Part shown: piece after piece, positions 25,721 through 51,189 of the stretch | Numbering within the stretch: position 1 is the first letter of the stretch | How the letters are laid out: each line of letters begins with the position of its first letter | Assembly (NCBI GenBank): GCA_024180945.1 | Contig: JAKSGN010000016.1 | Span: 124,001 to 188,000 of the forward strand | Reading direction: 5' to 3' | DNA length: 64,000 nucleotides | DNA from: Macrophomina tecta | Taxonomy: Eukaryota; Ascomycota; Dothideomycetes; Botryosphaeriales; Botryosphaeriaceae | Notes under the pieces: model-generated | Database searches by the model: none | The model's input: the letters and a program-made list of their open reading frames with translations, nothing else | Told to the model about the DNA's origin: nothing | Program-made: the position numbers and the translations under genes

Positions 25721-26106
25721 ACTGCTGGGAGGGGAAAAAAGGAGAAAGCTGGTGATATGAAGGCAATTAGGCTCTGTGGTTAATGGTCTCTCGGTGCTTG
25801 TTACCCCGCCGTTAAAGGGACGGGCAATACTCAGGAAAGCGGTCTTGATGGAAACCAAGAGGCAGGATGGTTAAGGAAACAGGGTAAGGATGGCTTTCAT
25901 GTTCTACTAACTTTAGGGTTTTCTCGTTTCTCCTCTCTTTCTCGCTGCGTGATTGCTTGCGTTTACTGTTGTCCTCTCAATTTTTGGGCTTTGGATGAAC
26001 CGGATATTCATGTATTTTAAAAAGTATTCCATAGTGCGTCTTTTCCCTATGGTCTGTGGAGGCCGACGGGGTGTATGAATCATCATCATCATCATCATCA
26101 TCATGA
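25721..26106 (+). repeat. LINE 3' untranslated region with (CAT)n tail
   Basis: Ends in about eight CAT/ATC units at 26,076-26,104. The last ~70 bp (CTATGGTCTGTGGAGGCCGA... to the tail) recur in reverse complement at 32,382-32,450. A simple-repeat 3' tail instead of poly(A) is known for several fungal LINEs. It ends directly against the 3' end of the Zn2Cys6 gene and seems to have truncated it. Confidence 0.7.
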
Positions 26107-28112: not shown

Positions 28113-28718
28113 GTTGGTTGTGGGCAACAACCGGTCTCATGGCTACACGGGCAGCGCACAGCTTATAATGGGCAGAACTATGAGCTACAAAAGCGGCATG
28201 GCGTGAATCTGCGAGGCTTCAGTGAAATTCGCTATCATCGGGTTGCCTACCCTTAATTCACACGCAGCGGGGTGCCATGGGAGTGTTCCACTCAGCGTGT
28301 TGCAGGGTGTTGAATTAGGCCCTGAGCCGTAAAATCTGCACAGTAGAATGGTTCCTGAGAATGCTGCGCACGTGTAAGGCTATGCTAATTATAACTAATA
28401 GAAACGTGCGGCGCACTACTACCGCCCATTGTCCTCGATGCCGTTTAGAGCGGGCGGTCTAACTCTTCGGTATTTTTCGTTGCCTCTGCTCTTATCGCAG
28501 CTGCCCTTGTTCTCTTAACGGCCGGTACTGTCTTTTACGTATTCCCTATTCGGTTGCGCAGGGCCCCTTGGTGGCGTAGTTAAAGTGTTGTATGTACTCG
28601 TCGGTCACCGACCCTTGTCCAGCACCCAACCACTGCTATACATGTACCCCAAGAGCACCCGCCACCCGCCGGCACGAGCCTTGCGCAGACAGTGCCGTTT
28701 CCATTTCCAATTCCCGTC
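28113..28718. promoter_or_regulatory. Divergent promoter between regulator and GGCT genes
   Basis: 606 bp without a coding frame that I can support. It holds the TCGGN3CCGA site at 28,601-28,611. Being between two divergent genes, it could control both. Confidence 0.55.
28601..28611. promoter_or_regulatory. TCGGN3CCGA site upstream of the GGCT gene
   Basis: TCGGTCACCGA, a perfect palindromic match, 108 bp before the GGCT start codon. This motif is the published consensus for the Zn2Cys6 regulator of ETP clusters (described for the sirodesmin regulator and found in gliotoxin-type promoters). Confidence 0.75.
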
Positions 28719-29546
28719 ATGGCGCCCTCTCAAGTGGAAAACGTGTGGTATTTTGCGTATAGCTCCAACATGAGCTCCAGCACGTGCCGCGGATCGAGAG
28801 GCATCGAGCCACTTGCAGAGCTTCCGGCTAAAATTTCCGGCTGGTACCTGACCTTCGAAATATACGGAACGCCGTATAAGGAGCTCGGCTTCGCGTCTAT
28901 TAGACCCATGTCCGCAGGCTTAGAGAAGACGACGGAAATCCACGGCATCGCATACCTTGTTACGCGCGAGCAGTACGTTAGTATTCTAGCTTCCGATGGG
29001 GGCGACATCGTCTACAGCGAAGCCGAGCTACCTGCCGAGCCGCTCAATCCGGCCGACGCTGCTGCCATCTTGGGCAACCCTTCCGCTACGCTGAGGGTCG
29101 CAACGCTCGTCACAAGCTTCGCCTGCACCCCCGCCCCGCCTCCCCAGCTCTCGCTACAAGGTATTCGACCCTATGCCATCGCCCCAAAATGCATGTGGCT
29201 GACCCCGGTTCTGCAGGAAATCATGGTTGAAGGCGGCGTGGAAGCGTCCCTGCCCGATGCGTACCAGCGGTATCTGCGGCAACTGGCCTTCTACCATCCC
29301 GCGAAGAGCACGTGGCGGCATGTCGGGGCGGCGCTGTTTTTGGCCATCTGGATGCCATTGTTGGCGTTTGCTGAGTCTCTGGCTAAGGCGACGGGCAATT
29401 ACGATGGCCGCGGGCACGTGCCGCACGTCGTCAAAACCATTGTGCGCGCTATTTTCTTTACTATGTGGATCCATCATGATTACTTGTACGCTCCAATATG
29501 GGTACGTGGACATGGACTTGACGCTCTTCCGGGGATTTACTGCTAA
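28719..29546 (+). CDS. Gamma-glutamylcyclotransferase, GliK-type
   Basis: Single open frame of 275 residues from ATG 28,719. The N-terminal YFAYSSNM (residues 11-18) is the family's substrate-binding signature (usually YFAYGSNM), followed by a GWYLTFEIYG strand and an FASIRP segment. The C-terminal half (residues ~185-270) has the fungal extension seen in GliK-like proteins, with a hydrophobic LFLAIWMPLLAF segment and FTMWIHHDYLYAPIWVRG near the end. In gliotoxin synthesis GliK removes gamma-glutamyl groups from the bis-glutathione adduct. Here the gene neighbours a P450 and, across a transposon block, a GST and a GliP-type NRPS. A TCGGN3CCGA site lies 108 bp upstream. No lesions seen. The family and the cluster role are well supported; the product chemistry is inferred. 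Confidence 0.85.
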   Translation: MAPSQVENVWYFAYSSNMSSSTCRGSRGIEPLAELPAKISGWYLTFEIYGTPYKELGFASIRPMSAGLEKTTEIHGIAYLVTREQYVSILASDGGDIVYSEAELPAEPLNPADAAAILGNPSATLRVATLVTSFACTPAPPPQLSLQGIRPYAIAPKCMWLTPVLQEIMVEGGVEASLPDAYQRYLRQLAFYHPAKSTWRHVGAALFLAIWMPLLAFAESLAKATGNYDGRGHVPHVVKTIVRAIFFTMWIHHDYLYAPIWVRGHGLDALPGIYC

Positions 29547-29694
29547 AATTCATACATATCGTTATTCGTGCTTGTCCATGTTCCTGTGACGTGCTGGGTC
29601 GAAGCACGACAAATGTGGATAGTAGTACCATATTGCTATGCAAATACAGTGCCCTGTCATTAAATGCTAATTGTTCCCTTTCGACAGCTCGTAG
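29547..29694. other. Short intergenic stretch
   Basis: GGCT 3' region. It may hold a first exon of the following acetyltransferase that I cannot recognise. Confidence 0.3.
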
Positions 29695-30191
29695 TAAGAG
29701 ATCACCGGTGTGGCGTACGTGCAGATCCCGCGCCCGCGGGAAGTCGGCCAACTCAGTTCAGAAGGTGTGTAGTCGTTAAGCAGTATTCTCTGCCACAAAG
29801 TAGACTCTAACCACGTGTTACAGGCTTATCTTCACACCGACTTCGAACGTGAAACAAAACCAAGGATATCGGGCTGTGGCCGACGTTCCAAACCTCGGAG
29901 GTTTACAGGCGACTCATGGGCGAGCAAGCCATGCTGGAAAATCTGCGGGAACACGGCCAAGGAATGTAACAAGGAAATCTATGTTTCTTCGCAGTAGCTC
30001 CCAAGTTCCAGGGAATAGGGATTGGCTCAAGGTTATTGGCACACGTCGGAAATGTTGTCCGGAACATGCAGATCAGAGAGCTTTCTTTCGTCGGAGGTGC
30101 TGGATCCGCGCGGTTCGTTCAGCAGTGCGGCTTCTTGGAACCAAAGCAAGCTGCAAGCAGTGGCTTGGGTGTTTTCGTTAAGTCTCTTTAG
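29695..30191 (+). pseudogene. GNAT-family acetyltransferase remnant
   Basis: An N-terminal piece reading ITGVAYVQIPRPREVGQLSS (29,695-29,765) is followed by a likely intron (GTGTGT... to ...GTTACAG, ~29,767-29,822). A later frame holds YRRLMGEQAMLENL, then the acetyl-CoA motif A VAPKFQGIGIGSRLL (the Q-x-x-G-x-G/A signature, about 29,997-30,040), and a C-terminus with FVQQCGFLEP ending at TAG 30,189-30,191. A TAA near 29,967-29,969 interrupts the frame just before motif A, and a frame change lies near 29,865. The TAA would be explained by CAA to TAA, a RIP-type change. The expected N-terminal ~50 residues are not found. An undetected intron could repair one of the breaks. Its role in the cluster is unknown. 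Confidence 0.6.
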
Positions 30192-30242
30192 CTTACTGGA
30201 AAAATGGACCCTCTTGATTCCGGTTCTTCCGGAGTAGCATGA

Positions 30243-30253
30243 TCGGTTACCGA
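30243..30253. promoter_or_regulatory. TCGGN3CCGA site upstream of the P450 gene
   Basis: TCGGTTACCGA, a perfect palindromic match, 123 bp before the P450 ATG. The core is identical to the second site in the GST/NRPS promoter. Confidence 0.78.
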
Positions 30254-30375
30254 ATGGATTTCGTACAAAGTCTCCAACCGCATAGCTACTTAAATGTGCC
30301 GACCGTCGCTTTTTTCATTTGCGTACGATAAGAATGCTTTGGCTGTGATTGGACAAAGCTTCCGAACCTGTCGTA

Positions 30376-32143
30376 ATGTTTGCCGACGCGAGAGTCCTAT
30401 GGCTCCTGGCCATTCTGGGATTGGTGTTTGCTGGTTGGCTAGGCGAGAAAGGGGACAGGAAAGGAAACAAGGAGGTGATCATAGGTGATTGTTCGTGGTG
30501 GTGGCGGCGCCTGTGGTTTTGGACAAGATGGTTCCAAGACATGGCAGAGATGACCATGGAAGGTTACGAAAAGGTGAAGCGACCAACTTTGCTCTGAGAG
30601 AAGCACTGACACGGCCTCCAGTTCAACAAATCCAACCAAATCTGGGCCACCTGGATGTTCGATAGCCTGGTATACGTCCTCCCGGCCAAGTACATTGATG
30701 AGATCAAGGGCGGACCCAGGTCAAGACTCAGCACTCTGCATAGAGTCAACGAGCACTTGCAGTGGAGCTTGCACACCGGAAACCTTCTGGACGATGGAAG
30801 CTTCATAAAAGACCTTTCAAAGCATCTTAACCCAAGATTACGTAAGTGCAGGACGTGAAATTCGAAGACGAAGCTAAGTACCATTCAGCGCAAATGACCG
30901 AGTACATTTCCGGCGTGGTGCAGGAAGCCACCAACTTCCGTCTGGCCCCGGAACCGAATTCACGCGGTTCGTGGTCAAGATCCCCAAAATTGACCCTCTA
31001 CTAATCAACAGCAATCAAAGGTTGGAAATGTGTCAACCTGGCTGGTGCCATTACGGACATCTCAATGCGTCTGACTGGCGTCATGTGGGTGGGTCCCAAG
31101 CTAGGTCTATCAGAAGAGTACAGGACGAACTCCAGGAGCTACATAGACACGGCTGTCGAGTGGCCCACCATCCTCTTCTCAGCGCCCTCTTGGTCTCGCA
31201 AGGCGCTGTTCTGGGTGTGTCCCACTGGCCGCAAAATCCGTAACCATTTGCGAAAGATCAAGGAACTCCTGATCCCTGAGCTCCTGCATCGCTTGGATTT
31301 AGACGAGACCAAGCAGGCCTTCTCGCTCATTGATGGCCTTCTGCCAGCTTCCAACGATCCTCAGCGGGAAGCAAAGGTCGAGAGAGCTGTCGACCGAATC
31401 CAGTTCCTTACGTTCGCCGCCGCGCCGTTGATTGCCCTCATCACGAATCAGTTCTTGCTGACAGCAATGGGATACCCGGATATCGCGGACATCTTGCGGG
31501 ACGAGATGCGCACTGCAATCGCCAAGCACGGGGGACTGAACGACAAAGCCGTGGCCGACATGCCGAAACTGGACAGCTTCTTTCGAGAGACGCTCAGGGT
31601 CAGCCCACCGCAATCCCGTAAGCATCCGCACATTCTAGCCCCCTGGGTGACTTTCAACTCAAGTACTGTAGTTACCATGACCAGGCGGGTCATGAAAGAC
31701 TTCCGTCTCTCGAATGGCTTCTTGCTGAAGGAAGGCGTGTCGATTGGCGCTCCCGCGCGTGGTATTCTCCACGATCCTGCCAACTACGACAATCCACTTG
31801 CATTCGATCCCTTTCGATTTTACGATGCTACAACAAACGAGGTTACTGTCAGCTGCGCGACCATGACCGCAAAGTACCCTGTGTAGGCTTTCTCCACCCA
31901 AATCAGAACCGCTTCCAGTAACTAATGATGTGTTTAAGATTCGGCTACGGCACGTACTCCTGCCCTGGCCGCTACTATGGCATCCTCGTGGCGAAGCTTT
32001 GGATGACGGAGCTTTTGTTGAACTGGGAGATGAAATTTGTTCCCGAGAGGATTGGAAAACCGGTTGATTGTGTCATCAATGGGCTGACGTTGCCTAACGT
32101 TGACACCTTCGTGGCGTTTCGGAAAAAGGCAGAGGCCTCGTAA
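30376..32143 (+). CDS. Cytochrome P450, six exons
   Basis: Exons by GT-AG introns that keep homology in frame: 30,376-30,573; 30,622-30,841; 30,889-30,966; 31,012-31,617; 31,672-31,873; 31,939-32,143. The total is 1,509 nt, 502 residues, normal for a fungal P450. The N-terminus has a membrane anchor (VLWLLAILGLVFAGWLG). Mid-protein are VYVLPAKYIDEI, the K-helix FFRETLR (ExxR, residue ~358), a DPFRFYD segment and the haem loop FGYGTYSCPGR (Cys ~442). Introns are 45-65 nt, with branch sites such as CTGAC and CTAAT. The first exon lacks a clear Pro-rich hinge after the anchor, so its splicing is less certain. It resembles microsomal P450s of ETP clusters such as GliC/GliF (hydroxylation of the diketopiperazine); which of these it matches is not decidable. 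A TCGGN3CCGA site precedes it. No stop or frameshift is needed. Confidence 0.82.
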
Positions 32144-32377
32144 GGGATTCAACAAAAGGGATTGCTGAACTTGGGCTGAGGAGTTGTTTGGATAAACAAA
32201 CATCTTTTAGGCCACTCATGCTTGTAACTAGCAGGATGAAGTCGCTTATTCCTCAGCGAAGCTGGAGGCAGTGCGAGACTGGCGGCAAAGGAAGGGCCGA
32301 ACGTCCGACCGCCGCCCGAGCCTGCCGTAAGCGGGCTGGGGATTACGTGCCTTGAGGAACGAAGTTACGAGAGGTCG
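32144..32377. other. P450 3' flank
   Basis: No gene recognised. Normal base composition. Ends at the inverted LINE tail. Confidence 0.4.
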
Positions 32378-32482
32378 ATGATGATGATGATGATTCATAC
32401 ACCCCGTCGGCCTCAGCAGACCATAGGGACAAAGAACACTATCCTACGCTAAGCTACATTGGGATCCCGGTTCATTCGAGGC
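32378..32482 (-). repeat. 5'-truncated LINE 3' end, inverted copy
   Basis: Starts with (GAT)n at about 32,378-32,394 and then TTCATACACCCCGTCGGCCT, the reverse complement of the LINE tail at 26,040-26,104. About 100 bp are kept. It ends where the hAT terminal repeat begins. Confidence 0.7.
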
Positions 32483-32991
32483 CAGGGTGGTAAGCGTCCC
32501 GTTTTCTGCCGTCATGGGCCGTCTGACGAGAGGAGACGACACGGCCAGGGGCCATGACGAGACGTGACGGCAGAAACCGGCCGGTGACGAGTCGGTGACG
32601 ATATGACGGAAAGCTTAGTAAGCATATATCCATGGTGTTGAGTTGGGAGGCCTGGATGAGGGTATCGTTTGCTAGCATCACCCATATTAATTATACTGCT
32701 TTCTCCGCACCCCATCCACAAACTCTCTTCGCCAGCTCACCAGCTACGAGTCCAAAGCGTTTCACGATAGATGACGTTATTCCATGGTGTTAAGTCTCAT
32801 TGCTACACGATCTTATTTACCAGCTACGCCTTCTGGCACATCTCTGCCTCTATCGCATCGTCGCTGAGCCTTGTTCGCTCATACGATATCTTCCGCCTCC
32901 CATATGAGAAGAGACGCTCAGGTTCTGCGCTCATGGCGGGTATGGTGAAGACGTCAAAGGCCATGCGCTGTAGCACAGGCCATTGCGAGCC
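32483..32991 (-). mobile_element. Truncated hAT element: C-terminal transposase piece plus terminus
   Basis: 32,483-32,640 resembles the terminus of the hAT element at 51.2-54.1 kb (CAGGGTGGTAAGCGTCCCG versus CAGCGTGTAAGGCGTCCCG, with GACGG/CCGTC subterminal repeats). On the minus strand 32,800-32,991 encodes the hAT dimerisation domain: SQWPVLQRMAFDVFTIPAMS, AEPERLF, YERTRLSDDAIEAE, then TAG codons. The rest of the transposase is missing at the point where the next hAT element begins. Confidence 0.72.
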
Positions 32992-33036
32992 AGACGTCTT
33001 AATAATCAGTACTGATTGATAAGGCTCATACTGATA

Positions 33037-34867
33037 ACGTAATCAACAAGCGAGTCGCACACACAAGCGAGTCGCACACCTCCCACCTCCATCTCAACTT
33101 CAACTCCTTATGCCTCCGCAAATAAGGTCTGCAAAGGCCTAGAAAGAGGCCAAAGTACGTCTCGCACGTTAGGCCTATAAAAAGGGCCAAATTTCGAGCA
33201 TTCGCAAAGCTACAAAGATCTATAATATACCTTATAAGACCCTCGACGATCGCATACACGGACGCGTCGCACGCATTAATTTACGCGCATATAATCGCAA
33301 ACTCACTTAGACGGAGGAATAAACACTTATAGAATAGATTCTAGATATAGACGCACGTGGCTACCCACTTAGAATCGATATAGTGCGTAAGGCAGCCTTA
33401 TTATTGCTTAAGGAGCGCGTGGGCGATTCTGCCTATATCGGCATTAACTAGCCTTATAACTTTATAAACAATCACGACGAGATTAAATCGATATATACGC
33501 GTAAATACGACTACTAGAGGGCTCGATACGAAGATCCAGTAATTATATAGAGCTGGTTTAACCTTGTTAGCAATACAAAGCGAAAATATAGGATTATAGA
33601 TAAGAACTTATACAACTTCGACGAGATAGGCTTTATAATAGGAATTATAAGTACTTCACGTATTGTTACTTCCTTAGACCGACGTGGCAGGCCTCGTCAA
33701 ATACAGCTAGGTAATCGTAAGTGGGCTACTACTATTAAGATAATTAATATATTCAGTTAGTATTTGCCTCCTATAGTGATCCTTAAGGGCAAGGTGCACC
33801 TATCGACCTAGTATAGAACAACTAACCTCCTACTTAAGTAGGTAATTGCGCTTTCTAAGAATGGATGGACTAATAATAAGCTTAGTTTAAAGTGGCTTTA
33901 GGACGTCTTTAATAAATATACGGCTCTAAGGACTATTAGCATATATCGACTCCTTATTCTAGATGGCTATAGAAGCTATACGACACTAAAATTCGATAAA
34001 TTCTACTCAGAACGGTTAATTATTACGCTCTATATACTAGCTTACTCCTCTTACCTCTTATAACCCCTTAATGTGGGCTATTTTTCGACTTTAAAGCGAT
34101 TATATGGGCGCCTGGTTGTAGATTAGATCCGACTTAGTATTAACCATATCGACAAGGCTAAATTCCTACTAATATTTAAGCAGGCACGGGCCGAAGCGCT
34201 TTTAAAAGGCAACATTTTAAGTGGGTTTGCAGCAGCAGGCCTGATTCCATTTGGTCTAGATCGGGTACTCTCGAAGTTGCAAATCCGTATACATAATACA
34301 CTACCTCTAGAGCCAATACAGGCCCCCTAGCATCTAGAAACACCTTACAATGTTGCGTAATTAGAACAGCAGGTTAAGGTAATTAAGGGCTACCTTAAGC
34401 GTCGTACCTAGAGTCCTCCAACTCTAATAGATGCTGTGTTGAACCGGCTGGTTAAAGGCTGTTAGATGGCCATACACAGTATTATACTTCTAGTAAGCGA
34501 AAATGAGAAATTAAGGGCTGTAAATAAGAGATAGAAAAGGAGAAAGGCTATAAAGCGGTCTTAGATATCAAAAGAAACCACTCTTATAGTAGTAGAGGCC
34601 TAGGAGCTTATATAGTAGCTAGAAGTAGCCCTAAACCTTCCTACTTTAACGGTCGTTACTTAGCTAAGAAGTAGTGTTCTGCCTTCCTATATAAAGTGCT
34701 ATGCCTCTGATTATAAAACGAGGTCATGCTATAGGCCTTACTAAATTTATATACCACGTTTTATTTGAATTATATGAGTTGTTGTGGTGTTAGTCGAGCC
34801 ATAAAGTTGAGATGGAGGTGGGAGGTGTGCGACTCGCTTGTGTGTGCGACTCGCTTGTTGATTACGT
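33037..34867 (+). mobile_element. Pogo/Fot1-type Tc1-mariner element, RIP-damaged
   Basis: 1,831 bp between TA target copies (33,035-33,036 and 34,868-34,869). The terminal inverted repeats are at least 60 bp and appear perfect. Each contains the unit ACAAGCGAGTCGCACAC twice in tandem, then CTCCCACCTCCATCTCAACTT. One transposase gene lies inside. Its coding region is RIP-hit but the terminal repeats are not visibly damaged. Confidence 0.88.
33110..34744 (+). pseudogene. Pogo/Fot1 transposase with many nonsense codons
   Basis: One frame of 545 codons from ATG 33,110 to TAA 34,742-34,744 without frameshift but with more than 20 internal TAG/TAA codons, almost all at positions where Trp or Gln is expected. 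Recognisable parts: the CENP-B-like helix-turn-helix region, then NFDEIGFIIG (first catalytic Asp), GRPRQIQLGNRKWATTI, WTNNKLSLKWL, LLILDGYRSYTT (second Asp) and PLNVGYFSTLKR near the third acidic residue. The lack of indels suggests the element was young when RIP hit it. Confidence 0.85.
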
Positions 34868-34899
34868 TACTGATTGATTGATTACTATACACCTGATAC

Positions 34900-35265
34900 T
34901 GATTGATTAGCCTATCAGTATGTGCCAAGACATGACGCTGTAGTACCTCTGCTCGAATACGTCGCTGCTCTTACTATTCTTAGTCTAATTATTCTCATTT
35001 GGTAGTACATGTACCTTCCGAATAAGATTATTCTTGTTCTAATTACCAATATACTTTGTTATCTTAATATTCTCCGCCCCGAGACGTGTACGGTCATACG
35101 AAATAGTACGCTGAGTACCTGAAAAGACACGTTCGGCCTTATTAGATATAGGCGCAACTAAAGGTATGTTAATAGCCATCTTATGCAGCCGCGGGTATTC
35201 GATCCGTTGCTCTCCTCTGCTCTACTATGTAAGCGGGGTTGTTGCGATCTTGCACGGAGAAGTAT
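34900..35265 (-). pseudogene. hAT transposase 3' part (C-terminal dimerisation domain)
   Basis: On the minus strand, 35,040-35,165 reads PLVAPISNKAERVFSGTQRT and SYDRTRLGAENI, the hAT C-terminal motif. It is separated from the rest of the gene (40,603-42,431) by the copia insertion at 35,266-40,597; AGTAT is duplicated at the two sides. Confidence 0.75.
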
Positions 35266-35493
35266 TGTCAGACTATTTTGCCTTATTGCTACAGATCAGC
35301 ATCTACTCTTTGCCACCTCCTCACTACTCCTCATCTTCACAAGCTTCGGATAGCAATATCGGCTTCTATTCTCCTCGGTTATTCAAGCACTCATTTATGT
35401 ATATAAGCAAAGCATACCTACCTCCCTCTCAGGAGACAGGCAGAATCTACTCTCTTTCTGACCTCACTACTCTTCACTCACCCAAATTCAACA
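35266..35493 (+). repeat. Copia 5' LTR
   Basis: 228 bp, identical to 40,370-40,597. A TATA-like ATGTATATAAGC lies near 35,397-35,410 and is the probable start region for the RNA. Confidence 0.92.
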
Positions 35494-35505
35494 GTTATGA
35501 GCCCG
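35494..35505 (+). promoter_or_regulatory. Copia primer-binding site (initiator Met tRNA half)
   Basis: GTTATGAGCCC immediately after the LTR is complementary to the anticodon stem-loop of eukaryotic initiator methionine tRNA (GGGCTCATAAC). Priming from a cleaved half tRNA is known for Drosophila copia and several fungal copia-type elements. Confidence 0.75.
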
Positions 35506-35729
35506 GGGAGCGCCAAGACTACCCCACTTCTAAGCTCTTTGCTGATCAACTCGTCTACTCAAACGAGTACTCTTTACTGACACGCAACTGCTGTCAGAAC
35601 TGCGGCTTCTGTCCGGTTACAGGCTACGGCGACTGAACCAAATACTCTCAAACCGGAGCCACGCTGGCTACCACCACTACTCGGATCCAACTGGACCAAC
35701 GACTTCGACAATTACTACTCACTGACAAC

Positions 35730-38700
35730 ATGGGAGACTCTACTAAGTCCCACATTCTCACCAAGTCTTCGGACTGGAATCACTGGCTATTCTTAGTGAA
35801 AGGAAGAGCTCAGAACACTGACATCTGGGGCCTCGTTGATCCTTCACTAACAACCAAACCCGAGGGCACTCCAAAGCCCACGAAACCAACCATCGAGGGC
35901 ACTGTTACTGCTGACAAGAAGCTCACCTACGACTATGAGATGAGCAACTACCGCGCTGACTATGCACTCTACGAGAAACAACAAAAGGCACTTGCTGATC
36001 TTGCAACCTACATTCAGGACTCAATTGCTACAAACCTACTGCCCTACATCAGCAACACCGATTCTGACAATCATCCCTGGACCTACTTGACGACGCTCAA
36101 AGCCAAGCTTGCACCAACCAATGAAGCCACCGACCTAGAGCTTGAGCAGCAATACAACCAGCTCAAGCGAGGACCAGTCAACCAGAACATCGAGAGATGG
36201 CTTCAATCCTGGGAAGAAGTCTACACCAAGGCAAAACAACGAGACATTCCTCAAGTTAAAGACGACCGACCAGTTAGAGATTTCCTCCTCTCACTTCGAG
36301 GCATCGACTCCACCTACTCTCAGATGGAACTGCATATCTTACGAGGCCAGACTGACAAGCCATCTCTTCACAAAGCTGTTGAGGACTATCGACAACACCT
36401 ACGGATCGAAAATCTCGAGAAACCCTCTAAGTCTTCGAAACACTCAGCCTTCCCAGCCACTTTCAAGGGCAAGGAACAGGAAAATAACGACAAGCCACCT
36501 TGTATCTGTGGTCTCAATCACTGGTATAAGGAATGCTTCTACTTGAACGAGGATATACGGCCAAAGCACTGGAAACCGAATAAGGCTGCTCAAACACGTG
36601 TCAAAGAAAGACTCAAGGATCCAAAAATCAAAGCAAAAGTTGACTATGCACTAAATCGAGAAAGAGAAAGACAACCTGGATTCCAATCCACTACTACTGC
36701 CAACAGTCAAAGCAAATCTCCTTCAATCGAAGTCGCCTCATTCTCAGTCATTAGTCACTCTACAAGAAGAGCCAATACCTCTCTCCAATCATCCTGGATT
36801 CTAGACTCTGGAACCGATCATCACATCTGCAACAGCTTTATGCAAGACAGATTCACACAAACCAGAGCTGCTGAACCAGATGAATACCTCACCTGCGGAG
36901 AAACCACTGCACCAATCACGGCCTACGGAACAGTTACCGTGAATGTCAAGACACCATCTGGAAAGGGCCATATTACTCTCCAAGACGTTGCAATGTCCCC
37001 ATCTTTCATGGCCAATCTTATATCACTCGACAAAGCTCTCGAAGCAGGAATTGACTGGAATCCAAGGACTGGCACTCTCAGCAAAAACAACAACACCTTT
37101 TGCTTCACTGAACGACACAATGGTCATTTTTATCTCGAGCGCAACGTAGCAACTCTCCAAGCTCACTCTTCACTTATTGCCTTACAACCAACTGCTTTCG
37201 CAACTAAAGCCGCACAGATCACCAACTGGCACCAAATCCTTGGCCACGCTAGCCAGGAAACTCTTCAACACCTCGAAGAATCCACCAAAGGCACCAGCAT
37301 CACTCCATCTGATCAACCACTTCAGCACTGTGAGACCTGCGCTCTATCAAAGGCTCACCGTCTTATCTCGCGATTACCAGACAAGGAAGAAGAACCGTCA
37401 CAACCCTTCTCGCGCGTCACGTTCGACCTTCTCCAACTTACGCCAGCTTACAACGGAGATAGATGGACAGCCCATTTAGCCTGCTCTTCATCAAATTTCA
37501 TCCTCCCATTCACGTATCGACACAAATCAGACACCGCTGAACTGGCCATCTACGGACTCAAAATCATCAAGATACGCTACCATGGCAAAGTTATCTTCTT
37601 CAGAACTGATGGAGAAACAACACTCGGAAATACCTTTCTCTCTTATCTTATGGACCATGGAATCACACTTGAAACTTCAGCTCCAGCAACACCCGAGCAA
37701 AACGGACACTCTGAACGCTCAGGGGGTGTACTTCTCACCAAAGCACGAGCCATGCGAATTGGAGCCAACCTCCCAGAACGACTTTGGCCTGAAACCATCA
37801 GAGCCGCCGCCTATATCCACAACAGGACTCCACTCAAGAAACTCAGCTGGATCACTCCTTTCGAGAGAGTCACTGGCAATAAACCAAATCTCTCTCACCT
37901 TAAGGCCTATGGATGCAAAGCCTACTCTCTACGCAAGGACCTCCCACGCACGCACAAGCTTGCTGAACGAGCTTTTATTGGATATCTCGTTGGATACGAC
38001 TCAACCAACATCTTCCGCATCTGGATTCCAAGCCAGGATAAGGTAATAAGGACCAGAGACGTCACCTTTGACGAAACGAGCTTCTACGACCCTACCGAAA
38101 CTGATATCGGCAAAATTCTTGAAAAAGAAGTAATTGAGACCCTCAATACTCCTAATCTACCATCAATCTACGGTCTCATGCCTCAGGAAGAATCCGAATC
38201 CTCATCCCACTACGAAGGAACAAACGACGCTCAAGCAACCATTCAATCTCAAGCTGAGAAAGACTCGTCTACCCGTCAATTACCAACACCTTCAGAATCA
38301 GTGGAACCCCAAATACAAGCTCTCGTGCCACAAGAAGCTATGGAGCAACAAGAACAAGCACAAGAACAAACTGAGCAACGACTTGGACCTCTGCTACCAG
38401 CTCAGTATGATACTCCACCACAACCAGGAGCTGCTCCAGGCAACAGAGCACCAAGAGGAGCAGATATTGCAGCCGATATCACTGAAGAAACGATCATTCC
38501 TGAGAAAAGCTCAAGAAGTTCAAGAAACCAGAATCCAAATTACAGCAATGATCCTTTTAAGAAGCCTCGAAAACCACGGAAGGAAGCATACGCTGCAACT
38601 CTTGCTCAAACTCAAGTATATCCAAAGTCAACCTTCTACAACGCCTTTTCAGCTGCAATTCACACTCCAAGGCCGACAACTACACTCCATCGAGATAATC

Positions 38701-40283
38701 TGCCACCAGAACCAAAGAATTTTGAGGAACTCCTCAATCACCCATTCGGAGACAGATTTATGGACGCACTTCTCGAAGAAATCAAGAAACTTGAGCAAAA
38801 CCGAACCTGGAAACAAGCTCTAGCTACTCAGGCACACGCAGCGAAGAAACAGATTCTTCCACTCACCTGGGTATTCAAATACAAGTTCGACGAAGAAGGC
38901 TATCTTATCAAGTTCAAAGCGCGACTCTGCGTACGAGGAGACCTTCAATCGACTGCTCAGGATACCTACGCTGCCACACTCGCTGCACGTATCTTCAGAG
39001 GACTTATGGCAATCATGGCCGCTTTCGATCTTGAATCAAGGCAATACGATGTCATCAATGCGTATCCACACGTGCCAATCGATGAAGAAACCTACTGTAA
39101 ACCACCACCCGGCATGAAAATTAAGGACGGACTCGTTCTCTTACTCTTACGAGCATTCTATGGACTTAAGCAGTCGCCAGCTCTCTGGCAAAAGCACTTG
39201 TCAACGACACTTCAAAATCTCGGCCTTACTGAAGTGCCAGAAGCTCCCTGCCTCTTCACGAACGAACATATGATCCTATTCTTCTTTGTAGACGATATCG
39301 TCATCATCTATCATAAGGATCACACCGCCTATGTCGACGACTTTCAGCGCAAGCTCTTCGAAATCTACGAGATGAGATATCTCGGGGAAATTCAGTGGTT
39401 TCTAGCCATTAGGATTATCCGCAACCGGAACGAACGCAAACTCTGGCTTTGCCAAGACTCATACATCTCGAAACTTACTGCCAAATTCAATGTCAAAGAA
39501 GACTCGAAGCGCTCAGTTCCTCTCCCACCTGACGAACCTATCACTCAGAATCCTGAACAAGCTACAGAGCAAGATATCTACGTCTACCAACAGAAAGTCG
39601 GATCAATCAACTACGCTGCAGTCCACACTAGACCTGATATCGCTCACGCAGCATCACGACTCTCTGAACACTTGCAGAACCCATCAGCTCAGCACCTTCA
39701 TCTGGCTCAACGAGTTCTCGAGTATCTGGCAAGTACTCGAAACTACGCTCTTACTTTCTCAGGCTTTACTCAGTCTACCAAAGATCTCTTTATTGCCTCC
39801 AGCGATGCCTCATTTGCTTCAGATATTGACACCAGAAAGAGCATTCAAGGTTTTCTCTTTCGACTCTTTGGAGGACCTATCGACTGGAAAGCAGCTAAGC
39901 AACGCACTGTCACTACGAGCAGCACTGAAGCCGAATTACTCGCACTCTCAGCCACCGCCAAGGAAACTATTTGGTGGGAAAACCTCTTCAAAGCAATCGA
40001 TTTCTCTACTGGACATCAGACAAAGATTCAGTGTGACAACACTCAGACAATTCGCCTACTTGACGAGGAAACTTATAAGCTCATCACAAAACTTCGTCAT
40101 GTTCAAATCCACAGCCACTGGCTACGCCAGGAAGTACAAGAAGGCAACATTTCAATCTCTTGGACTCCCACTGCAGAGACAATTGCAGATGGACTCACTA
40201 AACCTCTCAACAAACAGAAACATCAATACTTTCTTCAACAAATTGGACTCGAAGACATCACTACTAAATTGCAAGATAACTAA
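35730..40283 (+). CDS. Copia Gag-Pol polyprotein
   Basis: 1,517 residues in one frame from ATG 35,730, the normal size for fused copia polyproteins. Order: Gag with an N-terminal NTDIWGLVDPSL block; a CCHC-like knuckle CICGLNHWYKEC (~255); protease WILDSGTDHHICNS (~355); integrase zinc finger HQILGHAS...CETCALSKAH (~505-555); integrase core FSRVTFDLLQL, FFRTDGETTLGN and PATPEQNGHSERSG (D, D, E); reverse transcriptase WVFKYKFDEEGYLIKFKARL, YDVINAYPHVPI and FFFVDDIVII (~1,185); RNase H ASSDASFASDIDTRKSIQGF, TSSTEAELLALS and a terminal HSHWLRQEV. All catalytic residues are present, so it may be active. It replicates its own RNA through reverse transcription. Confidence 0.95.
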   Translation: MGDSTKSHILTKSSDWNHWLFLVKGRAQNTDIWGLVDPSLTTKPEGTPKPTKPTIEGTVTADKKLTYDYEMSNYRADYALYEKQQKALADLATYIQDSIATNLLPYISNTDSDNHPWTYLTTLKAKLAPTNEATDLELEQQYNQLKRGPVNQNIERWLQSWEEVYTKAKQRDIPQVKDDRPVRDFLLSLRGIDSTYSQMELHILRGQTDKPSLHKAVEDYRQHLRIENLEKPSKSSKHSAFPATFKGKEQENNDKPPCICGLNHWYKECFYLNEDIRPKHWKPNKAAQTRVKERLKDPKIKAKVDYALNRERERQPGFQSTTTANSQSKSPSIEVASFSVISHSTRRANTSLQSSWILDSGTDHHICNSFMQDRFTQTRAAEPDEYLTCGETTAPITAYGTVTVNVKTPSGKGHITLQDVAMSPSFMANLISLDKALEAGIDWNPRTGTLSKNNNTFCFTERHNGHFYLERNVATLQAHSSLIALQPTAFATKAAQITNWHQILGHASQETLQHLEESTKGTSITPSDQPLQHCETCALSKAHRLISRLPDKEEEPSQPFSRVTFDLLQLTPAYNGDRWTAHLACSSSNFILPFTYRHKSDTAELAIYGLKIIKIRYHGKVIFFRTDGETTLGNTFLSYLMDHGITLETSAPATPEQNGHSERSGGVLLTKARAMRIGANLPERLWPETIRAAAYIHNRTPLKKLSWITPFERVTGNKPNLSHLKAYGCKAYSLRKDLPRTHKLAERAFIGYLVGYDSTNIFRIWIPSQDKVIRTRDVTFDETSFYDPTETDIGKILEKEVIETLNTPNLPSIYGLMPQEESESSSHYEGTNDAQATIQSQAEKDSSTRQLPTPSESVEPQIQALVPQEAMEQQEQAQEQTEQRLGPLLPAQYDTPPQPGAAPGNRAPRGADIAADITEETIIPEKSSRSSRNQNPNYSNDPFKKPRKPRKEAYAATLAQTQVYPKSTFYNAFSAAIHTPRPTTTLHRDNLPPEPKNFEELLNHPFGDRFMDALLEEIKKLEQNRTWKQALATQAHAAKKQILPLTWVFKYKFDEEGYLIKFKARLCVRGDLQSTAQDTYAATLAARIFRGLMAIMAAFDLESRQYDVINAYPHVPIDEETYCKPPPGMKIKDGLVLLLLRAFYGLKQSPALWQKHLSTTLQNLGLTEVPEAPCLFTNEHMILFFFVDDIVIIYHKDHTAYVDDFQRKLFEIYEMRYLGEIQWFLAIRIIRNRNERKLWLCQDSYISKLTAKFNVKEDSKRSVPLPPDEPITQNPEQATEQDIYVYQQKVGSINYAAVHTRPDIAHAASRLSEHLQNPSAQHLHLAQRVLEYLASTRNYALTFSGFTQSTKDLFIASSDASFASDIDTRKSIQGFLFRLFGGPIDWKAAKQRTVTTSSTEAELLALSATAKETIWWENLFKAIDFSTGHQTKIQCDNTQTIRLLDEETYKLITKLRHVQIHSHWLRQEVQEGNISISWTPTAETIADGLTKPLNKQKHQYFLQQIGLEDITTKLQDN

Positions 40284-40369
40284 CCACTATTCTCTACTGC
40301 TTTTATTGTACACTCGACGCTGCTTCTACTATCACGACCCTCCCAAGCGTACACGTCGTGAAGGGGGTG

Positions 40370-40597
40370 TGTCAGACTATTTTGCCTTATTGCTACAGAT
40401 CAGCATCTACTCTTTGCCACCTCCTCACTACTCCTCATCTTCACAAGCTTCGGATAGCAATATCGGCTTCTATTCTCCTCGGTTATTCAAGCACTCATTT
40501 ATGTATATAAGCAAAGCATACCTACCTCCCTCTCAGGAGACAGGCAGAATCTACTCTCTTTCTGACCTCACTACTCTTCACTCACCCAAATTCAACA
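40370..40597 (+). repeat. Copia 3' LTR
   Basis: 228 bp, identical to the 5' LTR, followed by AGTAT. Confidence 0.92.
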
Positions 40598-40602
40598 AGT
40601 AT

Positions 40603-42431
40603 TAATAAACTTCTCTAGCTTATTCTTATCGTTTGACGCCTCTGTTACATCGAGTGACTGGGCTAGTTTATTATACGCTGTTATCTGGATCTGCGGGGCC
40701 TCCTCCGGAGTAGTGGTAAGCGGAAGATCTTTGTATTGACTCTAGATCTGCCTAGCTCTATTGATTGTACTATCGTGCTAATTAACGTGCTAGTTCTGGC
40801 GGAGGTATTTCAATCGCTTTGATGGGTGGAGAAGCAAGGCCGCGGAATATATAGGCGCCTCGTTGGTCTTAAAGTAGTACTTATTAAGCACAAACCAGCC
40901 TATATGTATAGAGTGAATGAGGCGTTGATTATCGGCGTAGGTCTCCTAATAAAATAGTTAGTACTATGATGCTAAATAAAGTCTATTATCTACCTTAGTA
41001 TCTTTGAAATGCTTAAGTAGGATATCTATTTGGTAAAGTAGCTGATCTAACGAAGACTACTTCTTCTGCTGCGCTTGCGTAGCCTGTTAGAAGGGTTGAA
41101 GGAAGTCCGCCGTTAGCCTAAGGACATCCTAGTCATCCTGTGTGAGACTATTATCGCCCAAGGCTTTATGATGCTCTTGTTGAAACACTATAAGTTTGTC
41201 CTTCTTCTCGAGTGCAGTCCGAAGGAGTATGTACTATGAATTCCACCTGGTCGCGTTGTTAATGCCGAGTGTATCGCCTGCTAGGCGCTCCTAAAGCATC
41301 GCTGTGTACTGTGGAACTCCGTATATACACGGCGATATTGTGGAGTTTACCAAGGGGCCCTATGGATCGCTATCTAGATTGATCCTTTGGTACCTTTCGC
41401 TGCTTGCCCTTGCTGTTTTTCTGCCGCAATTGCGCCTGTAGAGACTTAATAACTATGGTGTTTGCGTTGCTATCTGCCTCTTTAATGGCCGCGTTGAGTG
41501 CCTCTTTGCTGGAGGCGAAGAGAAATGCCTGGAGGCATAGATTGATAATATGGCCTCTATATCGAACCCGGCGCTCAATGGGGTCGAACCCAACGCTATA
41601 TTTATTCGCCAGTGCCGTTGATAAAGCACGTATGTAGGTGTTATTTGCGGTAGAGTTATCTGACGTAAAGTAACCGATGTTGCCGGTAATATTGAAATAC
41701 CGTATAGTCTCTAGTAAGTGGCGTAACATTGTCTCTCTAGAGTGACTGTGCCGTACGTTTGGTAGACCTAATAAGGCCTCACGGAGCTCATAGTTCTCAT
41801 CAACCCATTACCTATATATTCCGAGGAAGACTTTGCGATGCGGTGACGACTATAGGTTGATGCTGAAATGGACTTGTGACTTTGCCGCCTGTAATTGAGC
41901 TTTGACGTTCTCGCGATGTATGATATATGATAGCCTAATATGAGCCACTACCGTATTGCCTGACTGAATAAGGATCTCTTTAGCCCTCGGGTTTACTGCG
42001 TAGAGAAGTGCTTGGTATTCCGGCCAAGAGACGTAGTTGAATGGAAGCCGCTGGCGTGTAATAAGCTGGATTTGAGCCTCGTAGAATGCGTTAAGTTTGA
42101 TCGTATTCCGTAGTATTGATTGTTCGTCACGGGATATGTGCTCTCGATTGTTCTCTTCTACGCGTGTAAATGCTACTTTAAGAGACTGTTGAAGCGCCTT
42201 CTTGGCTGGCCTTTCTTCGTTATCAATGGCAATACCGTGTTTACTTCGCATATGCTGTTTGGCGCTTGTAGTGGAGACTGTGTGCCAGGGTGGGTTGTGA
42301 TAGTGTTGATAATACCATAGTCTCTGGTTATTCTGGTGTGTCTCTTCGTCTCCTTGAGGCATACGGAAGTGCTTCCAGGTTTCTGGCGTACGTATTTTAC
42401 GCTTCTTCGGCTGAGATTGAGGTTTGGACAC
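40603..42431 (-). pseudogene. hAT transposase 5' and central part
   Basis: Start on the minus strand at 42,431. Residues 17-65 have the layout of a BED zinc finger (TWKHFRM...TTSAKQHMRSKHG), but the Cys positions read Tyr (RLWYYQHYH), as after G-to-A. Then a core segment at 41,370-41,729: NIGYFTSDNSTANN and RRVRYRGHIINLCLQAFLFA, where the usual RRxRCxGHIxNL has Cys replaced by Tyr. The reading frame is broken at about 41,850 and again after 41,370. The 3' end of the gene continues at 34,900-35,265 beyond the copia insertion. Not functional. Confidence 0.75.
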
Positions 42432-42888
42432 GGATGACGCAGAGGAAAAGGTAGTAGAGAAAAATGACTGCTGTGAACGGGGCCGTAGGGCTGTGGAGAT
42501 GCTCGATTCTGGCGCCGGTGAGCTTAATTCTTCGTATTCGATGTCCCCTACGAATGGAGACGACCCAGTAGGTATATTAACGCGCGGTGTTTATTTATGT
42601 GTTGTATACTGTACGCCGTTAAAAGCTTTTCGAGTTGTGTGCTAGAGACTTAGTCTATTTTAATAGTGCTAGTAAGCTCAAGTTATCTACGAGGTTCGAA
42701 GCGCAACATAATGGTTCTTGGTGATGAGTTACTGCGCGCCACCAGCAGGCAGCCATCCCATAGATTAGCCAGGTCACGTGGATTACTGGTTACTGATTGA
42801 TTGATTAGGAGCTTACTGATACTGATATCATATCAGTATCAATTAGTAAGCAATACTGCTTGATAACTGACTGCTTGTTGAGACGTCT

Positions 42889-43848
42889 GTAGTAGATCTA
42901 GCTATCAGACTTCGCACAGCCATCGATATCTTCTTTTATAGATATTGTCATGACCATGATGAGGGAGAAGAAGATGTTCGGCAAGACCAGCTAACCGACG
43001 AGGACTGGCGACAACTTGATCTCTTTATGGTGCTTCTAAAGCCCTTTAAGGGCCTTCCGAAGCACATGGAAGGCAACACGAATAAACGTGGCCTCGAGGG
43101 TAGCCATGGTGCACTGTGGGAGGTTATCAAGGGCATGGATTTTCTGTATACTCATCTGGACAGCGCAAGCGACATGATCAACGCAGATCCTTGTAGCTAC
43201 AGTGAGCCCTACACCGCTGGTGTTGACGCAGCTATCTATAAGCTGAATGAGTACTACAGAGAGACTGACAATTCGCCTCTATATTCATCAGCTATTGTTC
43301 TGCATCCCTCCATGAAGATGGAGTATTTCAAGGAGCATTGGAAGAAGCAGAAGGACTGGATAGCGTCGGCGAAGAACAGCGTCACCAGTCTATATTAGAA
43401 GTACGAGAAGATATGGCTTATGGAGGACGATGATCAGCAGGAGGACTCTAGCGCTGGAGACCCTGAAGAAGACGAATTTGAGCGCTTTGGCCGCATTAGG
43501 GCACCTGTGAGAGGTCGCAAGCGCAGAAGGATCCTCTCTGAGCTCGAGCAATATCTAGAATCTGGTGTGGTGGACACGAAGGTGAAAGATCCGCTTAACT
43601 GGTGGCTTACCAAAGGTTCTAGATATCCAATCCTCCAGCGGATGGCTCTGGACCTTTATAGTATCCTGGCGATGAGCTCTGAATGTGAAAGAGTTTTTAG
43701 TCAGACTAAGTTGATCTTAACTGATCAGCGCAACCGATTTGGCAACGACACGCTAGAGGCAGTGGAGTGTCAGCGGCACTGGTTGAAAGGCGGTATATTG
43801 AGCGAAACGGTGGAGGAGGCTTTTTCGCGGGAGCGGCTAATTCGATAG
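42889..43848 (+). pseudogene. hAT transposase C-terminal half, different copy
   Basis: The frame opens directly after AGACGTCT with SVVDLAIRLRTAIDIFFYRY, continues through LFMVLLKPFKGLPKHMEG, YKLNEYYRETDNSPLYSSAI and a single TAG at 43,396-43,398, then YPILQRMALDLYSILAMSSE, CERVFSQTKLILTDQRNRFG and ends at 43,848. It corresponds to the second half of the transposase at 51.5-53.8 kb. The N-terminal half is absent; the neighbour on the left is the terminus of the other hAT element. Only one stop, so little RIP. Confidence 0.78.
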
Positions 43849-44049
43849 CTTCTTTATATGGCGAATATCATGGTTCTTTCAGCTCCTCAACACCAATTAT
43901 CTTCTGCAGCTTACCCAATTGGGCATAGTGAGGCGCCCATACGCCCGCCTCGCGCCCGGCGCGTAATTCAAGCGCCAGTCCGCCCGCCGCCGTCATGCGA
44001 GGCGCCCGCCCGCCCGAGACCCTCGGGCGCCGGCGGGCGGGCGGTTGGA
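43849..44049. repeat. GC-rich hAT terminus or junction with GCGCCCG repeats
   Basis: Contains repeated GAGGCGCCC/CGCCCG units and an imperfect GC-rich hairpin around 44,005-44,043 (arms CGCCCGCCCGCCCGAG and CTCGGGCGCCGGCGGGCG). It ends where homology of the GST gene stops. This is the probable 3' end of the hAT copy to its left; the exact boundary is not visible. Confidence 0.5.
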
Positions 44050-44376
44050 CACACTGGTCTTGCCCACAAGCCGTTTACGCGCATCGTATCGCTCTCCCAT
44101 ATAGGACAGAATCGTCGAACTATCCCACACGACAACGCGCTCGCCGTCAACGTTATCGATCAGCGCCGGGGCGTACAGCTGCGGATGGATCTTGCGGAAC
44201 CAATCCGCAGCGGCGGCCACCTTATCGAGCACGGCGTACTGCCAGGGGATTTGAAGATACTCGAGGATGACCGGCTTGATCCAGTTTTGGTACCTGCCCT
44301 TGACCAGCAGGAGAGTAGGGATATCCGGAACATCCTCGACGAGGGAACGAGAGGAGTTGACGTCAAGCGGCATCAT
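44050..44376 (-). pseudogene. Glutathione S-transferase, N-terminal domain only
   Basis: Start ATG at 44,376 (second ATG at 44,373). About 108 residues form a thioredoxin-fold GST domain: DIPTLLLVKGRYQNWIKPVI, LEYLQIPWQYAVL, a WFRKIHPQLYAPALIDNVDG segment and VVVWDSSTILSYMGERYDAR (the SNAIL-like glutathione-binding strand). Homology stops at GKTS near 44,053, at the GC-rich repeat, so the helical C-terminal domain (~110 residues) is missing. An intron at that point (AGTGTGT) cannot be excluded, but no second domain lies nearby. In gliotoxin synthesis GliG is the GST that adds glutathione to the oxidised diketopiperazine. Divergent with the NRPS, sharing a promoter with two TCGGN3CCGA sites. 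Confidence 0.72.
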
Positions 44377-44535
44377 GAGCGAGGTTGGCAGAAAGGGGAA
44401 AGTTTTGAAGATTGCAAAGCGTTTGGGTCCTGCAAGACTCAATGGGAATAAAATATAAAACTCCGACTTTGCAAGGACGACAGGAGGCGCTATTTTTGGG
44501 GCACGGTTGCCAAAGCAGATATGTCCCGCCGCCAA

Positions 44536-44546
44536 TCGGGAACCGA
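44536..44546. promoter_or_regulatory. TCGGN3CCGA site 1 in GST/NRPS promoter
   Basis: TCGGGAACCGA, a perfect match to the ETP-regulator palindrome, 197 bp before the NRPS ATG and 160 bp before the GST ATG. Confidence 0.75.
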
Positions 44547-44569
44547 TAAGAGATTAGTTCCATATGGGG

Positions 44570-44580
44570 TCGGTTACCGA
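44570..44580. promoter_or_regulatory. TCGGN3CCGA site 2 in GST/NRPS promoter
   Basis: TCGGTTACCGA, the same 11 bases as the site before the P450 gene. Confidence 0.78.
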
Positions 44581-50700: not shown

Positions 50701-51189
50701 GCGGTGCAGCGCGCGTCGCAGAGCTCGCTGGCCAACGCCATGCCGTGGCCGCAGCTGCTCGCGAGCCTGGGCCTGCCCGCCGACAGCGAGCAACAGCAAC
50801 TGTTCGACTGCGTCGTCACCTTCCACGACGACCGCCGCCGCTCCGGCAGCGACACGGCGGAGAAAGGGCCGCTGGCCGTGGCGGGCGCGCTCCCGCGCCA
50901 CGTGTGGGCCGAGGGCGCAAAGTTCGCGCTGCTGTTCGAGTGGCACGCCTTCGGCGACGACCGCCTGACGGTGCGGCTGGAGCACGATACCGACGCGCTG
51001 CCGCCGCCGCTGATGCGCGTCGTCGAGCTGCTCCTGCGGCGCGCCGCCGAGGGGCTGGTCGAGGCCGAGTGTCGGTACGAGACGCTGCTGGAGAGCATGC
51101 GGGAGCTGATGAGGCTGGAGTGCGAGCGCAGCGGGGTCGAGGTGGCGGAGATGCACGATCTTGCGGTTAGGTTTTTGAGGGGGGTGTAG
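44743..51189 (+). CDS. Two-module NRPS (A-T-C-A-T-C), GliP/SirP-type
   Basis: Five exons: 44,743-45,340; 45,394-48,345; 48,400-48,674; 48,730-48,819; 48,871-51,189, joined by 51-55-nt GT-AG introns with CTAAC/CTGAC branch sites; 6,234 nt, 2,077 residues, no lesion. Domains: A1 (IIFTSGTTGKPKG ~150, YGPTEAT ~284, TGD ~372, NGKID ~476); T1 (QGVHSL, Ser ~538); C1 (HHALIDG ~715); A2 (FTSGSTGKPKG ~1,173, YGPTE ~1,300, RTGD ~1,388, NGKLD ~1,487); T2 (GGHSV, Ser ~1,556); a linker with an Asp run from (GAT)n at 49,756-49,780; C2 (~1,625-2,050, SHIVCD ~1,744 in place of HHxxxDG). GliP-type enzymes join two amino acids into a diketopiperazine. GliP has a further T domain after C2; here the protein stops about 25 residues after C2. 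A hAT element begins 2 bp after the TAG. Substrates not predicted. Confidence 0.88.

Follow-up and report, generated by a model that had tools for sequence, protein, structure and literature searches.

Do four copies of one short palindrome mark the promoters of a gene set that has been scattered by repeats and is still switched on together? The question is raised by a 64,000-nucleotide stretch of the Macrophomina tecta genome (positions 124001-188000 of contig 14, here C14; the whole 64-kb stretch is called the window), in which perfect copies of TCGGN3CCGA stand beside genes for a gamma-glutamylcyclotransferase (GGCT), a cytochrome P450, a glutathione S-transferase (GST) and a nonribosomal peptide synthetase (NRPS). 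We consider it fairly probable (about 0.6) that these palindromes are binding sites of a Zn2Cys6 regulator that co-switches a scattered gene set, predicted to make a sulfur-containing diketopiperazine. The four sites are:

28601..28611, no strand: palindrome TCGGTCACCGA, TCA core, 107 bp ahead of the GGCT and 488 bp from the regulator start
30243..30253, no strand: palindrome TCGGTTACCGA, TTA core, 122 bp ahead of the P450
44536..44546, no strand: palindrome TCGGGAACCGA, GAA core, in the GST/NRPS divergent promoter, 159 bp from the GST and 196 bp from the NRPS
44570..44580, no strand: palindrome TCGGTTACCGA, TTA core, in the GST/NRPS divergent promoter, 193 bp from the GST and 162 bp from the NRPS

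These are exactly the copies, and the positions, that a preliminary description of the window had listed; the 64 kb hold no other, and the sites at 30243 and 44570 do share the TTA core, as it had said. Its statement that all four lie within 200 bp of a start holds for our own gene starts (107-196 bp), but placing the motif in front of every head gene was an overstatement, since the regulator gene starts 488 bp from the nearest site and a fragment of a GNAT gene has no site ahead of it. What it called the published binding consensus has been published as a prediction for GliZ/SirZ binding, which the available part of PMC4006717 describes as proposed and not proven. The same part reports the site for every gli gene but gliZ and gliA, and the available part of PMC8191991 reports it in the promoters of eight sir genes.

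Frequency of the palindrome in the window and the genome

The four perfect copies in the window compare with a mean of 0.59 and a maximum of 3 in 100 dinucleotide shuffles. One-mismatch versions are not in excess there (15 observed, 14.3 expected), and a reading of the motif as TCGN5CGA, which we take to be an AflR-type site, was rejected because it occurs in the window at chance level (12 observed, 12.6 expected). The sites at 44536 and 44570 form one of five pairs in the genome spaced by no more than 30 bp; the control, the same motif read backwards, yields two such pairs.

Might the four copies nonetheless be accidental, sites of the CGG/CCG type being common in the GC-rich promoters of this genome? 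The genome-wide count that the preliminary description had proposed (54.1 Mb, 37 contigs) gave a divided answer. With 866 sites, fewer than the 1127 of the backwards motif, the palindrome is not rare; on C14, however, 114 kb (98-118, 124-188 and 200-230 kb) contain 11 sites against a local-shuffle mean of 1.37 (maximum 9 among 300 shuffles). Within those 114 kb only the spacer of 3 is enriched: spacers of 0, 1 and 2 give 3, 0 and 0 sites, spacers of 4 to 11 give 0, 0, 0, 1, 0, 0, 1 and 4, and the backwards motif occurs just once. Scans of C14 at 88-98, 118-124, 190-200 and 220-230 kb returned no palindrome. The 11 sites fall in 67 kb of bins with a GC fraction of at least 0.45 (140 kb around the locus), which corresponds to a Poisson P of 2e-8 at the genome rate and only 0.0026 at the rate of a control set of 11 GC-rich loci, picked by protein homology with overlapping loci excluded (3 sites in 50.8 kb); by this standard the enrichment is modest. 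Seven of the 11 sites lie outside the window, in stretches (40 kb) chosen by protein homology and not by the motif, and for these P is 5e-6 and 0.011, respectively. The genome-wide total and the three sites in the control loci speak for chance. The motif is not rare genome-wide, and its strength comes from position and context: 10 of the 11 sites have a predicted start no more than 250 bp downstream, and sites are kept in paralogous promoters (see below), so that we regard chance as very improbable.

The TTA-core form TCGGTTACCGA has 23 copies in the genome. We had considered it a rare genome-wide beacon and rejected this, as 14 of the 23 lie inside one near-identical repeat; the other nine include the two in the window, one ahead of a GST gene on contig 37 (C37) and one after the GNAT gene at C14:411 kb. 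The 14 repeat copies (L001, L004, L009-L012, L045-L047, L049-L053), by eye a long interspersed nuclear element (LINE) with an endonuclease-type frame, carry the palindrome within an open frame, and retrotransposition of this LINE-like repeat spreads it. A further palindrome pair, at C14:345472, was dropped because it sits in DNA resembling, by eye, a Tc1-type repeat.

Genes in the window, its flanks and contig 37

The genes of the window are as follows (A, T and C are adenylation, thiolation and condensation domains).

26314..28112 (approximate), minus strand: putative Zn2Cys6 regulator gene; zinc-cluster half at 28016, Fungal_trans PF04082, Met at 28112 taken as start
28719..29546, plus strand: GGCT, GliK-like by kind; open frame of 275 residues
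29970..30191, plus strand: GNAT acetyltransferase, C-terminal part only; PF13508 at 1.6e-06, 63% identity to the GNAT at C14:411 kb
30376..32143, plus strand: cytochrome P450 of several exons (boundaries by eye); PF00067 at 1.8e-17 in the piece 31005-31886
44053..44376, minus strand: GliG-like GST, N-terminal part only (~108 of 238 residues); best PDB match GliG
44743..51189, plus strand: NRPS, A-T-C-A-T-C, 2077 residues; five predicted exons, four GT-AG introns, no internal stop

Genome searches with the GST, GGCT and NRPS led to C14:106 kb, C14:216-220 kb and C37:227 kb. The left island on C14 (~102-119 kb) encodes a GliT-like reductase, an MFS transporter, a GGCT, a P450, an aminotransferase resembling 1-aminocyclopropane-1-carboxylate (ACC) synthase, an ABC transporter, an oxidoreductase weakly like CmcJ/NvfI (62 bits, cut-off 80), and a second transporter and an acyltransferase, both named by eye without a family match. 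The right island (~201-220 kb) holds several P450s, an AtaL-family gene, a GliT-like reductase, a partial NRPS and a GliG-like GST. Together the islands add the seven palindromes outside the window, and P450s are present in the window and in both flanks. Each island has one GliT-like gene, with GliT as best PDB match (2.7e-27 and 1.5e-36), and the window has none. The left aminotransferase (PF00155; best PDB match ACC synthase, 3.4e-16), ~32 kb beyond the first gene segment of the window, is accordingly classed as an ACC-synthase-like C-S lyase, and a piece of the left GGCT is 98.7% identical over 155 residues to a Macrophomina phaseolina protein.

GSTs of the GliG type occur three times, and the right-hand and C37 copies match further than that of the window. 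The window copy finds GliG in the PDB at 1.1e-09 (next non-GliG GST, 4.9e-07) and is 85% identical to the C37 copy; an M. phaseolina GST aligns with it over residues 1-111 only. The right-hand copy matches GliG at 2e-21. The C37 gene (L037 4620-5474) has three exons and is preceded, at 170 bp, by a palindrome; the surrounding stretch (33% GC) contains no frame of at least 120 residues besides those overlapping the GST and its promoter. We rejected the idea that this copy, too, is truncated, as it matches the M. phaseolina GST over three exons at 97.6-100% identity per exon; the full-length M. phaseolina orthologue matches GliG at 1e-46 and the next non-GliG GST at 1e-16. At C14:409801-412800 (L044), a GNAT gene and a frame that by eye is like a flavin adenine dinucleotide (FAD) monooxygenase are divergent, with two palindromes between them; a third follows the GNAT gene, where the window has its P450, and no P450 match was found at that place.

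The one exception among the 11 C14 sites to the 250-bp limit, C14:110479, adjoins the 3' end of the left P450. Once C37 and C14:410 kb are included, a site is found no more than 250 bp from 14 of the 20 starts that we mapped, all of them our own gene calls; at least six island genes were not mapped (the left aminotransferase, acyltransferase-like, ABC and second transporter genes, and two right-hand P450s), and two of the 14 site-bearing starts, those at C14:410 kb, were reached via the motif itself. Because that stretch was chosen for its TTA site, only its two other sites are new information.

Comparison of paralogous promoters indicates which of these sites have been kept. After the GNAT gene, TCGGTTACCGAATG and AGCTACTTAAAT are identical between the window and C14:410 kb while the intervening DNA has changed, and the kept site at C14:411287 matches 30243 of the window. 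The GGCT promoters of the window and the left island retain the palindrome arms and CTATACATGTACC. In the GST promoters of the window and C37 two sites stand in the same order; that at 44570 is kept perfectly, and the counterpart of 44536 is degenerate in C37. The right-hand GST promoter gave no useful alignment with that of the window, though it has sites of its own. The divergent NRPS/GST pair with palindromes is found twice, in the window and at C14:218.7-219.4 kb.

Duplication is an argument for a second explanation, that these are several independent neighbouring clusters with a common type of Zn2Cys6 site and not one pathway. GGCT, GliT-like and NRPS genes are each present twice and GliG-like GST genes three times, including that of contig 37; the right-hand NRPS piece (L035 5415-8747), in which only T-C-A is recognised and whose best matches in our protein set are PboA-type, is just 31% identical to the window NRPS over that piece; and the islands lie 12-30 kb apart. 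What the duplicates suggest is not a single cluster but at least two related sets that repeats have broken up. Full independence is nevertheless possible rather than likely, given that no single island in the stretches examined has a complete set of epipolythiodioxopiperazine (ETP) genes, that the footprints connect the window, the left island, the 410-kb island and C37, and that the zinc-cluster half at 28016 is the single match of a motif scan over the window, eight more C14 stretches and one of C37.

This regulator gene, which the preliminary description did not mention, has its Fungal_trans match (4.5e-08) in the piece 26821-27777 and a zinc-cluster half that by eye is apparently intron-split; an NCBIfam search with the regulator piece returned nothing informative. 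The P450 haem-binding motif was read by eye in the piece 31922-32143. The window GGCT is 61% identical to its paralogue at C14:106 kb and 59% to an M. phaseolina protein named gamma-glutamylcyclotransferase, with no Pfam, NCBIfam or PDB match. It is also 27% identical to a GGCT-like stretch that ends an NRPS model of Trichoderma ghanense (P0081; likewise P0071 and P0122), representing either a fusion or merged neighbours.

Composition like that left by repeat-induced point mutation (RIP) is found at 1-24 kb and 54-64 kb of the window (composite index 1.1-1.8), and the bins with the regulator, GGCT, P450 and NRPS have an index of -0.2 to -0.9. A 66-nt inverted repeat (26031-26096 and 32377-32442, 89% complementary) brackets the regulator-GGCT-GNAT-P450 segment. 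We rejected it as the ends of a mobile gene cassette (~26.1-32.4 kb): one arm lies in a stretch with at least 43 genome matches, so that insertion on two separate occasions is likelier. Transposase-like frames, hAT-type by eye, lie at 42871-43848, beside the truncated end of the GST, and at 51903-53780, just downstream of the NRPS.

The synthetase and the pathway it may serve

The closest relatives of the NRPS, among the best 120 of 5801 matches above threshold, are from Neofusicoccum ribis (71%, same length), Lasiodiplodia theobromae (69%), Diplodia corticola (62%), Phyllosticta citricarpa (60%) and Plenodomus biglobosus (56%); Aspergillus and Penicillium enzymes, including PboA of A. ustus, reach ~44% and GliP of A. 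fumigatus 34%. We placed it in a quick, midpoint-rooted tree of 43 rows, comprising 40 matches picked by eye (bacterial matches, all Trichoderma matches but one and the right-hand T-C-A piece were left out), the window NRPS and two fragments from its own genome. It falls in a 20-row PboA-type clade (support 100), separate from the GliP/VerP (14 rows) and HasD (8 rows) clades; how the three branch relative to one another is unsure. The A-T-C-A-T-C layout agrees with this placement; according to the available part of PMC12983300, the PboA relative VftPS has the same layout. The window NRPS has two T domains and GliP three, but two are also present in one member of the GliP clade, from Coleophoma. 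The pocket residues of the second A domain, read by eye and giving no firm substrate, differ from those of PboA. Within the tree, the NRPS of the pleosporalean Plenodomus biglobosus shares the six-row clade of the window NRPS with those of Diplodia corticola and Phyllosticta (Botryosphaeriales; P0006-P0008), possibly through horizontal transfer or as old duplicates.

This kinship is one of several points that weigh against a thio-diketopiperazine gene set. The NRPS is PboA-type and not of the GliP/SirP type expected of an ETP cluster, and the product of PboA, in the available part of PMC12983300, is the sulfur-free cyclo-Trp-Leu. Six of the 20 mapped starts have no near site (GliT-R, AtaL-R, P450-L, P450-R5, the left oxidoreductase and, at 488 bp, the regulator), and no listed site adjoins at least six further genes of the islands. 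M19 dipeptidase matches on C14 lie at 509 and 642 kb, ~290 kb or more from the right island. Finally, N. ribis, L. theobromae and D. corticola, the species nearest in the NRPS, are absent from the three GGCT and eight GST matches, among which two M. phaseolina proteins and a GST of Lasiodiplodia hormozganensis with the name gliG are found. As the GGCT and GST search is blind to distant relatives, these missing partners are weak counter-evidence, yet they lend no support to conserved linkage.

The same kinship makes room for a third explanation, in which a PboA-type cluster with its own Zn2Cys6 regulator makes a sulfur-free (indole) cyclodipeptide and the adjoining GST and GGCT are relics or serve another pathway. 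The clade, the layout shared with PboA and VftPS and the truncated window GST would fit. We nevertheless find it unlikely: GST and NRPS have a common divergent promoter with two sites, a second NRPS/GST pair has the same layout, and the open frames listed for the gene segments of the window showed no evident prenyltransferase, although none was specifically searched for.

Sulfur-type genes, the shared palindrome and the twice-found divergent NRPS/GST pair instead point to a thio-diketopiperazine pathway with a PboA-type core. The preliminary description had seen one former ETP-type cluster, and its observation of the palindromes is confirmed while this interpretation is supported in part. The enzyme set is ETP-like once the flanks are read, but the duplicates suggest at least two sets and not one; the truncated GST and GNAT speak for "former", the open NRPS and GGCT against it; and the grouping of the NRPS with PboA-type cyclodipeptide synthetases instead of GliP is an outcome that it had itself listed against its reading.

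In such a pathway a regulator, perhaps the one encoded at 26.3-28.1 kb, would bind TCGGN3CCGA as a dimer. The NRPS would make a cyclic dipeptide and a P450 would oxidise it; glutathione would then be added by a GliG-like GST, probably either that of C37 or the right-hand one. The adduct would be trimmed by the GGCT and a dipeptidase, its C-S bond cleaved by the ACC-synthase-like enzyme and the disulfide formed by a GliT-like enzyme. In its fullest form, this proposal would make C14 the carrier of a thio-diketopiperazine pathway that is dispersed yet still under joint regulation and is built around a PboA-type synthetase. Repeats would have broken it up, the TCGGN3CCGA code common to its genes would keep it together, and the intact C37 GST would replace the truncated local one. 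Such a pathway would supply the missing genetic origin of Botryosphaeriaceae alkaloids of the lasiodipline/botryosulfuranol type. We put this forward tentatively, as a rather doubtful extension.

Comparison with known systems

We know of no genes for the lasiodiplines or botryosulfuranols, which are compounds of the Botryosphaeriaceae, the family of this genome; we infer their link to the locus. The available part of PMC9224594 describes lasiodiplines from Lasiodiplodia pseudotheobromae, lasiodipline D being a Trp/Ala disulfide, and botryosulfuranols from Botryosphaeria mamane, and that of PMC11443486 states that the biosynthetic origin of botryosulfuranols is still to be worked out. Among Dothideomycetes, ETP-like clusters are known from L. 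maculans and S. diversum, with homologues reported in other Pleosporales, in the available part of PMC7530617. In literature titles and abstract openings, a set of incomplete coverage that does not prove absence, we found no ETP cluster for Macrophomina or the Botryosphaeriaceae. The dispersed ETP-like gene set with its PboA-type core is thus a candidate source of the thio-diketopiperazines of this family, and the locus offers a concrete gene set for testing their origin. What appears new is an ETP-like, repeat-fragmented gene set with an unexpected type of synthetase, joined by a common palindrome, which may represent a single functional pathway, a pair of decayed ones or a pathway without sulfur. 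The palindrome flags pathway-type genes that lie in islands apart from one another and that a search for tight clusters would not keep together. If the association of a PboA-type synthetase with GliG- and GliT-type genes is true, it would show that genes for sulfur addition can be paired with another type of cyclodipeptide synthetase.

An ETP gene cluster has been defined, in the available part of PMC2045112, by linked best matches to P, T, M, N, G, C, I and J. Like the gli genes of Aspergillus fumigatus and the sir genes of Leptosphaeria maculans, the present set has TCGGN3CCGA in its promoters, though not in every one (compare the available parts of PMC4006717 and PMC8191991), together with GliG-, GliT-, GGCT-, ACC-synthase- and P450-type genes, a two-module NRPS and a Zn2Cys6 gene nearby. 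Unlike theirs, its NRPS is PboA-type and has two T domains against three in GliP, its genes are spread over several islands and two contigs with duplicates, and the local GST is truncated. The synthetase resembles PboA and VftPS (protubonine, verrucofortine) in clade and in its A-T-C-A-T-C layout (for VftPS, the available part of PMC12983300), but identity to PboA is 44%, the second A-domain pocket differs, as read by eye, and its neighbours here are sulfur-type genes. The closest parallel in arrangement is provided by the dothistromin genes of Dothistroma, where one pathway lies in separate islands (six miniclusters in the available part of PMC7530617); the product there is a polyketide, whereas here the core is an NRPS, and the joint working of its islands is proposed.

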